A stretch of 64,000 nt of DNA from assembly GCF_000002985.6 (NCBI RefSeq), contig NC_003279.8, forward strand, positions 13,206,001 to 13,270,000. The letters run 5' to 3'. Source of the stretch: Caenorhabditis elegans (lineage: Eukaryota > Nematoda > Chromadorea > Rhabditida > Rhabditidae). This document shows positions 14,195 to 35,668 of the stretch, piece by piece. The notes beneath the pieces were generated by a model. The model was not told the DNA's origin and ran no database searches. It saw nothing but the letters and a program-made list of their open reading frames with translations. Numbering within the stretch: position 1 is the stretch's first letter; the number at the start of each line of letters is the position of its first letter. A program made the translations under genes and the position numbers.

Positions 14195-16015
14195 CATACC
14201 TGTGCGGCATTCGGAATTTTTCGGCATAACGGCATAACGGCATATGCCGCCAAAAATTTTTTTCGGCATATCGGCATATGCCGATATGCCGTCCATTTTT
14301 CGTTTCGGCATAACGGCATTTTCGGCATATGCCGTGAATTTCAAAATCGGCATTTCGGCATATGCCGCGCTCCAAAAACCGGCATTATGCCGGCATTCGG
14401 CATTCGGCATTTCGGCATTTTGAACTATTGTTTTCCAGTTACAAAAAATCAACATGATTTAAATGTTTTCAATCAAACTTGCATATTTTTTATATCATTA
14501 CCAATATCCAAAAAATAGTGTTCGTCTGATTTTGGTATGTGACGTAACACTACAGGTATGCACAATTTTTGGCTTTTGACAAGATATTGAGTTGGGGTTA
14601 CTGGTTAGATGTTTTTAGGTTTCTATAGGAGTACTTTAATACGCCCAATTGCTATTAAACCCCCTCCACTTGAGCTGTATAGGGCATCTGCAAACTTTTT
14701 TGGGAAACTAATATTGACATCGGATGCAGCATACCAAAAAACCTCTGTATCTACAATTTTATACTCACATTTCAAAATTGAACGCAAAAGAGCAAAAAGT
14801 TGAAATGTCGACTGTCCAAATGTTATGGGACACCCTGACTAGGAATCCGTCAGAAGGTGCCCATTCGACTTACATATTAGATCTGTTTCATTCGATCTCA
14901 TATGTAAGTCCAATGGGCACCTTCTGACGGATCATTAGTGAGATTTTCGAGAATTTCACGCAAAATTCTCTTTTTTTTCAAAATATCATTTTAATAATGG
15001 AGTACTTTGGTAGTGTACTTTTTGTTTTTTATATCATGGAAATTACTGAAAACATGCAAAAAAAAATTTCAAGTATGTTAAAGGGGGAGTAGAGTTTGTG
15101 GGTATTTTGCTTAAATAGACTAAAAATGGTCCAAAACCACCGAATTTCCTAATGAGACTTCACAGAAAATTTTTTATGGCCGGTCAAATTTTCGAAAAAA
15201 AAGAGCCAAATTTTGCTAAAATCTGAAATTTCGCACACTTTTCTTTGTCACAGCCGCATTGAGACAACTTTTAGGCCGATAGGCATCCAAAAATGATCAA
15301 TATTGGATGCCTATCGCTAAAAGTTGTCTCAATCAACGAAATTCCGCGAGATAAATTACCAAAATAAGGATTAAAGGGTGATAATTTCAGAAAAACTAAA
15401 ATTCAGCGGCTATGGCAAAGAAAAGTGTGCGAAATTTCAGATTTTAGCAAAATTTGGCTCTTTTTTTTCGAAAATTTGACCGGACATAAAAAATTTTTGG
15501 AAATTTTTGTGAAGTCTCATTAGGAAATTCGGTGGTTTTGGACCAGTTTTAGTCTATTTACGCAAAATATTCACAAACATTACTCCCCCTTTAATGTGCA
15601 CGCCTTGAAACATTTTTTGGTGCATTTTCAGACAATTTTCGAGTCATCATAAAGCCAAAATTGTTGCAGAAAGTTTCTAAATGCTCAAGCAAAAAGCTTC
15701 AAAAAATCTCAAAAATGGAACAATCTGCGCAAAAACCTTACTATTTGCAAGATCTTTATGTTTCATCGGATACACGAAAATTATGAAAAAATGGTTTTTG
15801 ACAAAAAAAACCAGCCAAAAATGCAGAAAAAAAACGGCATAATGCCGTCATAATGCCATTATGCCGTTATGCCGGTCATTTTATTTTTCGGCATAACGGC
15901 ATTTTCGGCATATGCCGTGAATTTTAAAATCGGCATAACGGCATATGCCGTGCTCCAAAAACCGGCATTATGCCGGCATCGGCATATGTCGAATGCCGAA
16001 TGCCGCACAGGTATG
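14195..16015. mobile_element. Non-autonomous hAT-type foldback element
   Basis: Inverted ends start CATACCTGTGCGGCATTCGG on both sides. An exact 8-bp duplication, GTGTCAGC, flanks it (14187-14194 and 16016-16023), as hAT elements make. Sub-terminal zones are dense in CGGCATATGCCG-type palindromes. The centre (about 15075-15600) is a long inverted repeat around 15290-15300. No protein is encoded. It sits inside the larger block at 14124-19680. Confidence 0.8.
14846..14931. repeat. Short near-perfect hairpin
   Basis: TCCGTCAGAAGGTGCCCATT on the left pairs with its inverse on the right. The arms are about 38 nt with a few mismatches and the loop about 10 nt. It lies inside the hAT-type element and may be a separate small insertion. 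Confidence 0.75.
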
Positions 16016-23701: not shown

Positions 23702-24521
23702 CTTTCTCCAAATAAGAAAAAATCCGGCAATTGAATTCCAAGTGTATGTATCTTGAACAGCTTACATCAGATTAAAATCGAACTTTTTTTGATTTCAATT
23801 TTTCGATTTTTTTTAATTTTTTGATTTTTCCTGAAATTAAATCGAAAAGTTTTCAATGACAGCCATGAAAAATTCCCAACCTCTCCACAATTTCTAATTC
23901 TAAATAAATTGTCTCTAGAAGTATTTTTAGCCTTCCCAGAATTTCTAATAGATTGAGTTCAGGGGTGCGCGGCAATTGCCGAAAATTTCCAAAACCCGTA
24001 ATTTCCAAAGTTGCCGATTGCCGGAAATTCCCAAAACCGCAATTGCCGGAAATTGCCTATTGCCGGAAGTTTCCGATTGCCGCGCACCCCAGATTCAGAT
24101 TGAATTCCCGCCAAAATTGTTATCAGAAAATTTGAATTTCCTGGTTATTTATTGTCATCCAAATAAACCACAATTAATATTTAAGGTCTCACAACGCTCC
24201 GTATCTACTTTGAACTATTCTGGACGGACTCAAAACATGTTCGTCAAGTTTCCCTTTTAGGTTGGATAACACAAAACTCAATCGCCTAAATGACCAGTGA
24301 AAGGAATATAGATAAGGCACGGTTTGTAGTTTTATCTCACAGTACATCTCATTATGGAGAGGAATATCTTGAATTAAATGAGGATTTAGAAGAAATCGCT
24401 TGATTTCAAGATTTGTTGCCAATTTTGGTTAATCATTACCTATATATAAAAAAATAGTTTCCGTTTGTTAAGAAGTGACGTCATAGCTTACAAAGGCAAG
24501 GCGTTTTCGGCTGTTGGAGGG
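23702..24521. other. Intergenic with one small foldback
   Basis: Upstream region of the DUF1647 gene and AT-rich spacer. Apart from the foldback at 23962-24090 I see no gene or RNA. Many CGGCAATT motifs occur, as in other repeats of this window. Confidence 0.5.
23962..24090. repeat. CGGCAATT foldback, 129 bp
   Basis: Ends GGGGTGCGCGGCAATTGCCG and its inverse. The interior is made of GCCGGAAATTCCC-like alternating motifs. A typical miniature foldback repeat; no coding content. Confidence 0.8.
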
Positions 24522-24990
24522 ATATAGGTTTGGAGTTATTAGTGGGATATGGTCGGGGTACTGTAGTAGTACTGTAGGAGTACTGTAGGAGTACGGTAGG
24601 ATTACTGTAGTTTAGGAAAAATTGAGTTTTGTCTTTTGAAGAGATATAGGTTTGGGGTTATTAGTGGGATATGGTCGGGGTACTGTAGTAGTACTGTAGG
24701 AGTACTGTAGGAGTACGGTAGGATTACTGTAGTTAATGAATAATTGTGTTTTTGTCTTTTGAAGAGATATAGGTTTGGGGTTATTAGTGGGATATGGTCG
24801 GGGTACTGTAGTAGTACTGTAGGAGTACTGTAGGAGTACGGTAGGATTACTGTAGTTAATGAATAATTGTGTTTTTGTCTTTTGAAGAGATATAGGTTTG
24901 GGGTTAGTAGTGGGATATGGTCGGGGTACTGTACTGTAGGAGTACTGTAGGAGTACTATAGGATTACTGTAGTTTGGGAAAAATTGACTT
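24522..24990. repeat. Minisatellite, about 121-bp unit, four copies
   Basis: Each unit starts near GATATAGGTTTGG, contains GTGGGATATGGTCGGGGTAC and then GTACTGTAGGAG sub-repeats, and ends with an A/T-rich stretch. Copies 2 and 3 are almost identical; the fourth is shortened. It lies directly beside the heat-shock-element array. Confidence 0.9.
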
Positions 24991-25019
24991 TCCGTCTTTG
25001 GAAGGGAAATTGGAAACTT

Positions 25020-25700
25020 CGGGAAAATTCTGAAATGTTCCAGAACTTTCTAGAAAAATCGAGAAAATTCTGAAATGTTCCAGAACTTTCTAGAAAAATC
25101 GAGAAAATTCTGAAATGTTCCAGAACTTTCTAGAAAAATCGAGAAAATTCTGAAATGTTCCAGAACTTTCTAGAAAAATTGAGAAAATTCTGAAATGTTC
25201 CAGAACTTTCTAGAAAAATCGAGAAAATTCTGGAATGTTCCAGAACTTTCTAGAAAAATAGAGAAAATTCTGGAAGTGTATGTGTGCCAAATTCTGAAAT
25301 GTTCCAGAACTTTCTAGAAAAATTGAGAAAATTCTGAAATGTTCCAGAACTTTCTAGAAAAATCGAGAAAATTCTGGAATGTTCCAGAACTTTCTAGAAA
25401 AATCGAGAAAATTCTGGAAGTGTATGTGTGCCAAATTCTGAAATGTTCCAGAACTTTCTAGAAAAATTGAGAAAATTCTGAAATGTTCCAGAACTTTCTA
25501 GAAAAATCGAGAAAATTCTGGAATGTTCCAGAACTTTCTAGAAAAATCGAGAAAATTCTGGAATGTTCCAGAACCTTCTAGAAAAATCGAGAAAATTCTG
25601 AAATGTTCCAGAACTTTCTAGAAAAATCGAGAAAATTCTGGAATGTTCCAGAACTTTCTAGAAAAATCGAGAAAATTCTGGAAGTGTATGTGTGCCAAAT
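25020..25700. repeat. Tandem array of heat-shock-element-like units
   Basis: Fifteen units of 40 bp (GTTCCAGAAC-containing), broken twice by the spacer GTGTATGTGTGCC, which also closes the array. Every unit holds TTCcaGAA and TTCtaGAA. Five units (near 25241, 25385, 25529, 25569 and 25649) have the full three-box form GAAtgTTCcaGAA. HSF-1 binds inverted nGAAn boxes, so the array is a plausible cluster of HSF-1 sites. Similar arrays are known to be carried by Caenorhabditis Helitrons; I cannot show Helitron ends here. Confidence 0.85.
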
Positions 25701-26084
25701 ACTTTTAATGGTGCCAGTCGTTGCCCGCGCCGTAGGAGCGGTCAGCGGCTGGTTTTTAATTAAAAAATTTGAAATAAAAACTTCAAGGAATAATAACATT
25801 AGACTTGGAAAATAAACAGAAATATCCTAACAGTTTTGGGGAATTTGGGGAAAAAATGTCCCGAAAGATTTTAAAATGGGCATTTTTATAGTTTTTTTTT
25901 CAACTTTTCGGCAATCGAAAATTCCGGCAATAGCCGAAATTGCCGAAAATTGGACGGAACTCAGCAGCAGAGATTTCTCTGCTGTATCTGTTTTTTTTAT
26001 GATTTTTTAAAATATTTACTTTAGCATATATGTAGACGTCAGCAAATTTTAATTATTTTTTGAATAATGAAATACGTGAGCCGA

Positions 26085-26248: not shown

Positions 26249-28660
26249 ATGATGCATTTCAAACACGCACTTATCACTTGTCTTCTCGTTTTATCAACAA
26301 CTACCATCATTTCTGCTCAAATACCCGAAAATCCAGTGTGCCAACCAACGAATCAGATTGGAAATGCAACCGGTGCACATTTTTTGTACTTTCTTGATAA
26401 GGCTATTGAACCGGATTTGGTGAGTAATACTCTTACTGGTTTTAGTGAGAAATCTAGTTTTTTTCAGCTCTCTCGTCTGACATATCTTCTCAAAGCAATT
26501 TCCTGCGAGATTCCAAGCAATGAGAAGATTAAGAACATGATCGTATCTTATTCTGGGGATAATGTAAGATTTATCAGTTTTTAACCTAATCAACCTGCTC
26601 AATATTCCAGCAATACTTTGGTGAAGCCGTGAAAAGTAGTCAGCTACCTTCCAGTTTGTATCTTCCGGTAAAGGAATCCTCGAAGCCATCCTCAAATCCT
26701 TGTGATAGCTTTCGCCAAGCGATTGCAAAAACGCCGTCGGAATATTTGAATCACGAAAATGTGCAGTTCATTGTGTCCGTTTTCGGTGACGCCACGTGTT
26801 TTTTGAAAGCTTTTCAAAGTCAGTTCAACGGGAATTCGCGGAAAAAGAGCTTCTTCTACAATGGAATTCTTGTTAATTCAAATCTAACCAATTCAAATAA
26901 TCAATCGATCAGAATGGTGATTCCGGATTTGGTGAAAGCAATTAACACAAGCAGTTAGTAATTTGAAGCCATCTGCCTTTTAAAAAATGTCTTTTTTCAG
27001 GAGTCTCCCTTGTAGGTTCCGACAAAATCAACGAGGTCCATGAAAGTGCTCATTTGGTTCAGAGTTATGCGAGCATGTATGTCCTGATCCTGTTCACCTT
27101 TGAAAATTATAAAAATTTTTATTCAGGATTCGAGATATCCTTCTTGGCAATAGTGTTCACGACTGGGAAGAAATTCTGACAACTACACTTGCTCCGGTGA
27201 CGTCAACCATGCCCCCAACAGCAAAAAGAGCAGCATCGATAGACGATGAGGGAGAAATGTTGACGTTCGATGGTAGTGCGGATGAGGAAGTGGTGATTCC
27301 TCCATCAAATGCTACTAATTCGACGTCTACAATTGCTCCGACAACTCATACAATCCTCTCGAGCACAACAGAAGTGAAGACTACTAGAAAGCAATTCAAA
27401 AAGATTGTTCCGATTCCCAAACCATCGAAGATCCCGTCTCGTTCTTCGACAGCTCGTCCCACAACAACCACTGAAGAATACGATGCGGATACGGAAGAAG
27501 ACGCCGAAAAACTTGAAATGATGTCAGGGAAGAGGAAAGTGGATAATGGAACTACTGTATATGTTCCCAGTGATCCGGATGCCCAGGAAGGTTAGAATTT
27601 GGCACGAGGAGTAGGCGATCACGCCTCGTCGATCTAAGGCACACTGAGCAGATCAGACCTAATTGCGACCTGCTCGGCAAACTCCACCAGCTTTCACGTA
27701 GTGCGCGTTTGAAATTTGGTAATTTGAGATTAATTGATAAAGGCCTAGTGGGTTTGCGCCGCCTGCGACCAAAGAATGATTGGACAGACTAGGAATCCCA
27801 GCTGAGTGAGGCGCGAAATGCGGGCCTCACGCTGATACCGCTGTGTATTCGAATGTGTATTCAAAATATATTCAAATGCAAAAAGGCAGTTATTTGAAGC
27901 AGCCGACACTGTCGGGGTTCACTATACATTCGGATACATGCGGCTTGAGTGACGCCGTGAGGCCGGCGCGGTGACCGCTGAGGCCAGCGGATGCGCCGTT
28001 GCGGCGACTTCATGGAAGCCCTAGCACATACCTATCTAAAATACTGCGCCAGAAAGCTGACAACATTCTGGAGAAAGTATCTACACTAACTATAAGTTAA
28101 CTCGTCAGCACTGTTGCCAGCTATACCGTTACCAATTTTCTTACAGGAATCGATGCGAACATCCTTATCTACATCCTACTCCTTGTCCTTCTCATTTGGT
28201 GCTTCTGTATTGCCCTGTGTCTTATTTGGATGTACGTGTGTGCCAAGCAACGAAAACACAAGATGATCAGTAAAGCTGAAGAGGAACGTGAAGCTATGTT
28301 GGCACTTTTGGAGAAAGGACACGAGACGGAGCACAGTTCTCGTAGAGCTAAACCATCGGTTTCTGTGGAAAGTGATGAGTTTGATAAGGAGTGGAAAAAT
28401 GTGAGTTACAAAAACAGTTATTGATTTTTTTTCCAATTTTTAAATTGCAGATCAAACCATCCAAGTACACCCCCGCTTCTGTTTCCACTAACGAAACTAA
28501 ATCCGAATTGGAGAGTGTGAAGCAACCGGTTGCAGCTACCCATGTCGCTCCTGTAGAAGTTTCAGAGTTCGAGGAGAGGCTCGATGATGATGTGGATCAT
28601 AAGCCAAGACATGGAGGATATGTTAAGACGAAGAGAACTGCTGACTTACATTTTGACTGA
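26249..28660 (+). CDS. Type I single-pass membrane protein, unknown family
   Basis: Exons: 26249-26419, 26468-26563, 26611-26953, 27001-27076, 27127-27590, 28147-28400 and 28451-28660 (TGA); phases agree throughout, about 537 aa. Two adjacent ATGs precede a signal peptide (FKHALITCLLVLSTTTIISA). A Cys-containing ectodomain follows (about residues 25-200), then a Thr/Ser-rich stalk (STSTIAPTTHTILSSTTEVK; TARPTTTTEE) that is likely O-glycosylated. One transmembrane helix comes next (about residues 386-413, NILIYILLLVLLIWCFCIAL), then a charged cytoplasmic tail starting KQRKHKM. I do not recognise the ectodomain. Layout fits a cell-surface receptor or adhesion protein. The intron before the membrane helix is 556 nt and GC-rich, unlike the others. 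Confidence 0.75.
27600..28120. repeat. GC-rich insertion in intron
   Basis: The intron holds unusually GC-rich sequence for this window, with motifs such as GTGAGGCCGGCGCGGTGACC and short inverted pieces (GCGCGTTTGAAATT region). Probably an old repeat insertion; I cannot identify its ends. Confidence 0.4.
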
Positions 28661-34809: not shown

Positions 34810-35668
34810 GTTCGACCACATATGCCAATTTTTCAATAAATATACAAATAGTAAAGTCGAAGATACAATGTGATTGCTTTTTCCTCATTTAAAAAAATTA
34901 GCTATGAATAAATTTGTCTCTAAGGCAATTTTTTTTCTCAATTTTTTAGGAATTTACTTATTGTTCATGGGGGCTCAATTCTGACCACAATTATCAACTC
35001 AGATTCTTTTCTCTAAAATTCAAATTTGATGAGAATATTGCATTTTCCCATTCTTTCACTGTACTCTTTAAGTGATACCCCCTAATGTTTTGTCTCCCGG
35101 GGAGAATAGGTCATTTATTCATACACAGTAGTGTGCCCAAAAAGACGCAGTGACCTGGCCCCTTGCACATTCTGTACATACAACCTTAATAGATACACTA
35201 AGAAAGTACTCTCCTCTGGTGGGGACAGTCACATTTTACTGGTCTGCTCTTTTTTGGTATCAGCATGGAAAAACCCCTGTGTTATCAATTATTTTAGATT
35301 TGCCAAAAGTTTTCATTTCAGGCAATGTGCCGATTTGCCGGAAATTTTTATTTTGGGCATATTTCCGATTTGCCGGAAAACCCTTTTGCCGCCCACCCTA
35401 CTACAAAAAATGTATCTAATAATTTTTAATAATACATTCTCCAACAAGACACATCTTTTGTCTCTCTCGGTCAACATTTAAGATCGATATCTTGGGTTGG
35501 CAAAAGTGTAGCGTACACAGAGGACCATTGCGTATTGAACGCGTCCTGACCTCCCAAACAGTCGTTACGTCATCGCACTGTTGCCCTCTCTGTCCACTTT
35601 TTAACACGTACTGCAATCTCCTTTGTTTTTAAAATATTCTGTTACAAGTTTTTATTTCAGGTCTTGTA
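34810..35668. other. Intergenic with degenerate repeats
   Basis: 3' flank of the SLC41 gene, then repeat-like sequence with GATTTGCCGGAAA motifs (about 35290-35400). No coding evidence. A TTTCAG at 35656-35661 lies 7 nt upstream of the next gene's ATG and looks like a trans-splice acceptor. Confidence 0.5.

Follow-up and report, generated by a model that had tools for sequence, protein, structure and literature searches.

An array at positions 25028 to 25675 of the window, the 64,000-nucleotide stretch of the Caenorhabditis elegans genome analysed here (C1:13206001-13270000), was found to be a phased lattice of heat-shock half-sites, with fifteen 40-bp units, each made up of four TTCnnGAAnn decamers that keep a common 10-bp register. 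Taken as a whole, the explanation that we consider highly probable is that these repeats lie inside a non-autonomous HelitronY4_CE element at 24433-25752, as its internal minisatellite; the element would respond to heat through HSF-1, be mobilised in trans, and owe its present form to a deletion and to tandem duplications. The phenomenon as such is already published, and the window locus, which belongs to a family described before, is a clean example of it.

A phased lattice of heat-shock half-sites

The fifteen units have starts from 25028 to 25636. The motifs TTCCAGAA and TTCTAGAA each occur 15 times in the array, both in every unit, and GAATGTTCCAGAA occurs in 5 of the 15 units, which reproduced all of the counts in the first-pass annotation of this DNA (fifteen 40-bp units with two boxes each, five with a triplet). 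Among starts from 25000 to 25720 there were furthermore 29 matches to GAAnnTTCnnGAA, 21 to TTCnnGAAnnTTC and 5 to the six-box pattern TTCnnGAAnnTTCnnGAAnnTTCnnGAA. Written in 10-bp steps, the consensus unit reads TTCtgGAAtg TTCcaGAAct TTCtaGAAaa atcgaGAAaa, so that seven of the eight half-site positions in an uninterrupted heat-shock element (HSE) are filled. Two 24-bp insets each displace the register by 4 bases and thus divide the array into three blocks, over which 101 of 126 in-phase half-site slots are filled; the 10-bp period was also called by Tandem Repeats Finder. The motif GTGTATGTGTGCCAA is found in all three edge pieces, at the junctions 25267 and 25411 and at the 3′ edge of the array at 25675. 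The parts of the array are as follows.

25019-25266, + strand: HSE minisatellite, first block, 6 units, in the first unit of which the family's 5′ (A) array is fused to its 3′ (B) array
25267-25290, + strand: 24-bp junction piece inside the array, a copy of the array 3′ edge
25291-25410, + strand: HSE minisatellite, second block, 3 units
25411-25434, + strand: 24-bp junction piece inside the array
25435-25674, + strand: HSE minisatellite, third block, 6 units
25675-25713, + strand: array 3′ edge and linker to the hairpin

The order of the array was compared with that of 500 dinucleotide shuffles of 25019-25698. TTCnnGAA was observed 38 times (shuffle mean 1.36, maximum 6), three-box sites 48 times when counting overlapping matches (mean 0.11, maximum 3), and six-box sites 5 times, with none in any of the shuffles. 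With an HSE defined as at least three contiguous inverted nGAAn pentamers, the 48 three-box matches all qualify. When the 40-mer was instead randomised 300,000 times, no version exceeded 4 half-sites in phase, to be compared with the consensus unit, which has 7 of its 8. The shuffles thus give about none of the boxes by chance, the alternative that the first-pass annotation had itself put forward, and that annotation had understated the order, as the boxes lie in a 10-bp-phased lattice.

Two further properties of the array can be mentioned here. Its 3′ edge (25675-25698) is duplicated twice into the array (25267-25290 and 25411-25434), giving a 144-bp higher-order step. RNA of 25019-25266 self-folds at -77.8 kcal/mol, as compared with -45.8 kcal/mol for shuffles (z -7.9), because TTC and GAA are complementary.

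Termini and family identity of the element

Alignment of 15 rows including the window, with unrelated host flanks, gave sharp borders on both sides. The 5′ border falls between a host A and TCATTACC at 24433, i.e. at a TC terminus, and the 3′ border falls between CTGG (25749-25752) and a host T. The last 39 bases form a hairpin extending into CTGG (-12.5 kcal/mol, z -2.29, with 7 of 200 shuffles equally good), the stem of which differs by one base in the window from that of most relatives. A 30-base pattern of the 3′ end, in its family form, had 84 genomic matches at up to 2 mismatches and none with the reversed control. Outside the array itself, its right flank gave 40 further matches (with 40 of the 89 candidates scored) and its left flank 69 further matches (with 40 of the 660 candidates scored). 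The TC 5′ end, the CTRR hairpin at the 3′ end and the insertion between A and T with no duplication of the target are hallmarks of Helitrons, and the element is hereby confirmed to be one; the 5′ TC and 3′ hairpin-CTRR ends that the first-pass annotation had named as features to look for round the array were those found at 24433 and, as hairpin-CTGG, at 25752.

24433-25752, + strand: non-autonomous Helitron of HelitronY4_CE type, 1320 bp, with sharp homology ends and copies with unrelated flanks; host A at 24432, host T at 25753
24433-24456, + strand: 5′ terminus TCATTACCTATATATAAAAAAATA, with 139 genome-wide matches at up to 1 mismatch and 0 for the reversed control
24503-24974, + strand: 123-bp minisatellite from the tandem repeat scan, 3.9 copies, with inner GTACTGTAGGA 11-mers, common to other copies
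25714-25752, + strand: 3′ hairpin ending CTGG (CTRR), from DNA folding and genome matches

Many matches to the 123-bp minisatellite cluster on contig C6 near 2059000-2064000.

With regards to family, the 40-mer AAAATTCTGGAATGTTCCAGAACTTTCTAGAAAAATTGGG was assigned to HelitronY4_CE in 2014 (PMC4039745, the main text of which is without the words heat and HSF), and the window units are this 40-mer with a few changes. PMC6927752 gives primers that surround a HelitronY4_CE insertion which lies upstream of nhr-247 and which the wild isolate QX1211 lacks. These primers flank one of the copies compared below, L058, with the forward primer at C5:15320317 and the reverse primer within the L058 stretch beyond the element; since they lie on both sides, L058 is the nhr-247 HelitronY4_CE, and its ends are those found for the window copy. 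In PMC9918286 a transcribed 40-nt satellite at III:8344363 is listed as 'Part of HelitronY4_CE', and that stretch was found to hold the HelitronY4_CE 40-bp unit with more broken boxes, having 17 TTCnnGAA and one six-box site. At the level of sequence, membership of HelitronY4_CE was hence confirmed, the window copy sharing with the family a near-identical 40-bp unit, the ends of the nhr-247 copy and richness in HSEs, with no coding part seen.

Comparison of thirty-five copies and probable history of the window copy

We compared 35 full-length copies, being part of the family, which were paired by eye from 5′ ends (the first 100 of the 139 matches) and the 84 3′ ends; stretches L074-L078 were outside the analysis, and for copy L050, the stretch of which contains two 5′ ends, the nearer one was taken. 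The preceding base was A in 34 of the 35 copies and the following base T in all 35, and the terminal CTGG was present in 34, with CTTG in the remaining one. All 35 hold a tandem array of period 39-41, with the unit consensus ending TTGGG or TCGGG in 7 of the 34 copies other than that of the window. The number of TTCnnGAA ranged from 5 to 120 per copy, and that of the reversed control CTTnnAAG from 0 to 2. With 39 TTCnnGAA the window copy is tied with one other and exceeded by 11, and eight HelitronY4_CE copies hold more than 100 HSEs according to PMC6927752, so that the first-pass description of the array as one of the densest imaginable did not hold. The window copy is rather a mid-range deletion derivative among the copies compared.

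The 123-bp repeat served as a marker for the history of the arrays. It was present in 26 of the 35 copies, with its border to the heat-shock array readable in 20, and 18 of these borders lead into an array, here called A, the consensus unit of which has 8 of 8 half-sites, with the B array further on. In two copies, that of the window and L061 (contig C6), B units instead follow directly upon the first A unit, as would result from a deletion between two like arrays; the window copy differs from the family in having no 5′ A array, a trait found also in L061 and some other copies. The window copy thus probably lost the segment between the two arrays by a joining deletion, with its array also being enlarged by tandem duplication. 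The latter is indicated by the boundary unit TTCTGAAATG, with 10 copies in the window element and 1 in L061, together with the array 3′ edge motif, which the window copy carries three times and each of the other 34 at most once; many units with one broken box are a further peculiarity of the window copy.

Descent of the window copy and L061 from a single fused progenitor that transposed a second time was also considered and then withdrawn, as the 586 pre-array bases of the window element are closer to L060, which retained the A array (94.6% alike), than to L061 (88.2%). These pre-array bases favour two events, and deletions that arose independently within the same similar stretch are at least as likely as a single one.

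Genome-wide occurrence and constraint on the boxes

Genome-wide scans, spanning 100,286,401 bases, found the six-box pattern at 1554 sites per strand and its reversed control at 0. The pair TTCCAGAA-N12-TTCTAGAA was found 554 times (313 + 241), again with 0 for the control. Of these 1554 six-box sites, 284 fall within the 35 full-length copies.

We evaluated constraint on the boxes using 412 B units from the 33 of the 35 elements that have at least three units. The number of distinct variants per column per array was 0.245 for box and 0.496 for spacer columns, with the box columns less variable in 30 arrays and more variable in 3 (column permutation 0.02). The spacers differ among the four steps of a unit, and misaligned conversion alone would therefore scatter variants in the spacers. 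These results are suggestive of constraint on the boxes, not separated from neutral homogenisation. A corresponding test of the A arrays was dropped, since A and B units overlap in shifted register and its 418 units must largely have been B units.

HelitronY1A_CE at str-96, lying between published primers (PMC6927752), has the same HSE decamer register but with a unit of 20 bp in place of the 40 bp seen in the window copy, which argues for the box being the preserved feature. Near str-96 (L080:2905-3012 and L084:1495-1602) this element shows eleven TTCnnGAA steps in a single 10-bp register.

Proposed HSF-1 binding, heat response and mobilisation

The bearing of such an array on heat shock is known from published work on the family. 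Garrigues et al. (2019, PMC6927752) report that most worm HSEs lie in Helitrons (11,527 of 18,766), that five types of Helitron, HelitronY4_CE among them, are occupied by HSF-1 in chromatin immunoprecipitation, and more so on heat, that RNA polymerase II (Pol II) increases at HSF-1-bound Helitron HSEs, and that Helitron HSEs are enriched near heat-induced genes. PMC6765114 is cited together with that study for HSF-1 and Pol II on Helitrons and for heat-induced neighbours. Efficient binding of HSF-1 trimers is stated to need three nGAAn pentamers in a promoter (PMC9737000), and isolated C. elegans HSF-1 binding domains are described as loading most multimeric sites cooperatively, with at most five per probe (PMC9148306). 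The first-pass proposal that a Helitron spreads HSF-1-type boxes agrees well with the ends and the A-to-T insertion site found here, and with a family tied to HSF-1 binding and heat induction (PMC6927752). By analogy, HSF-1 binding and a heat response are likely also at the window locus. Going by the published family work, heat shock would cause HSF-1 to load onto the in-phase half-sites of the array and Pol II to be recruited. The insertion could thus serve its neighbours, the gene at 26249 among them, as an enhancer or promoter that responds to heat, with repressive chromatin presumably keeping the element low outside heat.

For movement of the element, we propose that it may be mobilised in trans by the Rep-helicase that Helitron1_CE encodes (PMC6927752, PMC9918286) and that is reported to be HSF-1-dependent on heat (PMC6765114, PMC6927752). 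This is suggested by the ends of complete Helitron1_CE copies, the 5′ ends of which match in 23 of 24 bases (two copies) and which share the 3′ CGGCTGG and have a CTRR hairpin. No TTCnnGAA was present in the two Helitron1_CE end stretches examined (1001 and 901 bases). Complete copies appear head to tail, the 3′ CGGCTGG directly joining the 5′ TCATTAC with zero bases between, and such junctions were seen in both stretches, L081 and L082 (G000:C2:1969500-1970500 and 1976900-1977800), with element coordinates taken from PMC9918286.

Alternative readings

Several results weigh against the explanation preferred here. In the window copy the ATC slot is broken in all 15 units, and the variable columns do not favour constraint: one breaks a box, mutating GAA to AAA in 10 of the 15 units, one lies in the already broken slot, and the third alters a spacer in only one of the units. 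Upon removal of variants that out-of-register homogenisation could explain, the gap between box and spacer columns narrowed and depended on few sites: the box and spacer values came to 0.15 and 0.30 for transitions, there being only four spacer chances, and to 0.043 and 0.068 for transversions. HSEs are reported in only 2% to 44% of annotated Helitrons, depending on class (PMC6927752). Finally, the hairpin stem of Helitron1_CE is unlike that of the window family, and mobilisation in trans is suggested by similarity of the ends only.

Some of these observations would fit a passive minisatellite, with register and boxes both stemming from one ancestral repeat, kept alike by slippage and conversion, and with HSF-1 binding incidental and without effect at this locus. 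The loss of one GAA box in 10 of the 15 window units, the amplification of the boundary unit (10 versus 1 in L061) as expected of plain tandem duplication, and the lower core variation being partly gone once homogenisation is allowed for all favour this account. It is set against the six-box counts given above for the genome and its reversed control, the retained register in another Helitron family having a different unit length, and the reports that HSF-1 and Pol II occupy this family and that it is tied to heat induction (PMC6927752), and we regard it as possible, although rather unlikely. The Helitron lattices could also jointly titrate HSF-1 in heat, as a sink or decoy that does not act on single neighbours. 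The very large numbers of sites favour this, as does a review stating that in heat-stressed germ cells HSF-1 prefers Helitrons and HSF-1 activity is repressed; we hold such a role to be unlikely. That the array instead acts through DNA bending or nucleosome placement, as a periodic array of A/T tracts and not through HSF-1, would agree with its 10-bp period and runs of A and T. In decamers of the 35 elements, however, the C of TTC (1.47 bits) and the G of GAA (1.49 bits) fell inside the range of the four A/T letters of the boxes (0.99 to 1.79 bits) and exceeded that of the spacer positions (0.24 to 0.86 bits), although these runs were picked by box matches and are thus biased, and periodicity needs neither C nor G; we find this last reading scarcely credible.

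Lattices as a possible scaffold of HSF-1 nuclear stress bodies

A further question is whether HelitronY4_CE and related elements, through their HSE lattices with a 10-bp phase, could provide the DNA scaffold of worm HSF-1 nuclear stress bodies, as a transposon-made counterpart of human satellite III, with their self-complementary, heat-made RNA adding to foci of double-stranded RNA. We consider this quite improbable, although worth asking. It is stated in PMC6453478 that the sites to which worm HSF-1 granules putatively bind are unknown, and foci of double-stranded RNA overlapping the granules are reported there as well; a review notes that the granules appear again at similar locations, which would imply a scaffold. 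Against such a role, the amount of double-stranded RNA foci is reported as unchanged in the partial loss-of-function mutant hsf-1(sy441), worm chromosomes are said in a review to be without satellite repeats, and nothing in the present analysis puts granules on the arrays. No published link of worm HSF-1 bodies to Helitron repeats was recognised in literature searches, which is not proof of absence. Human satellite III in nuclear stress bodies is similar in being tandem DNA that is HSF1-bound and transcribed upon stress, as described in PMC9530788 and PMC6453478, but the worm arrays are short, dispersed and transposon-borne and not pericentromeric, and formation of worm bodies on them is putative. 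The family, when seen as a single phased lattice, offers targets for fluorescence in situ hybridization and for deletion with regards to the granule-site question, and it is the lattice view together with the scaffold question that we find worth keeping.

Neighbouring gene and other features of the window

The possible target of the array in the window is the following gene.

26249-28660, + strand: neighbouring host gene, with exons, signal peptide and a late transmembrane stretch assigned by eye only

The distance from the array end at 25680 to its likely ATG at 26249 is about 570 bp, in good agreement with the about 550 bp of the first-pass annotation. Its first 384 residues had no Pfam match. 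An apparent intron of the same gene contains a stretch, 27585-28150, that by eye is of unusual make-up. Other short arrays in the window, TTGCCGGAAATT-like or TTCGGCATA-like, are located at 14217-14334, 23975-24074 and 35290-35379.
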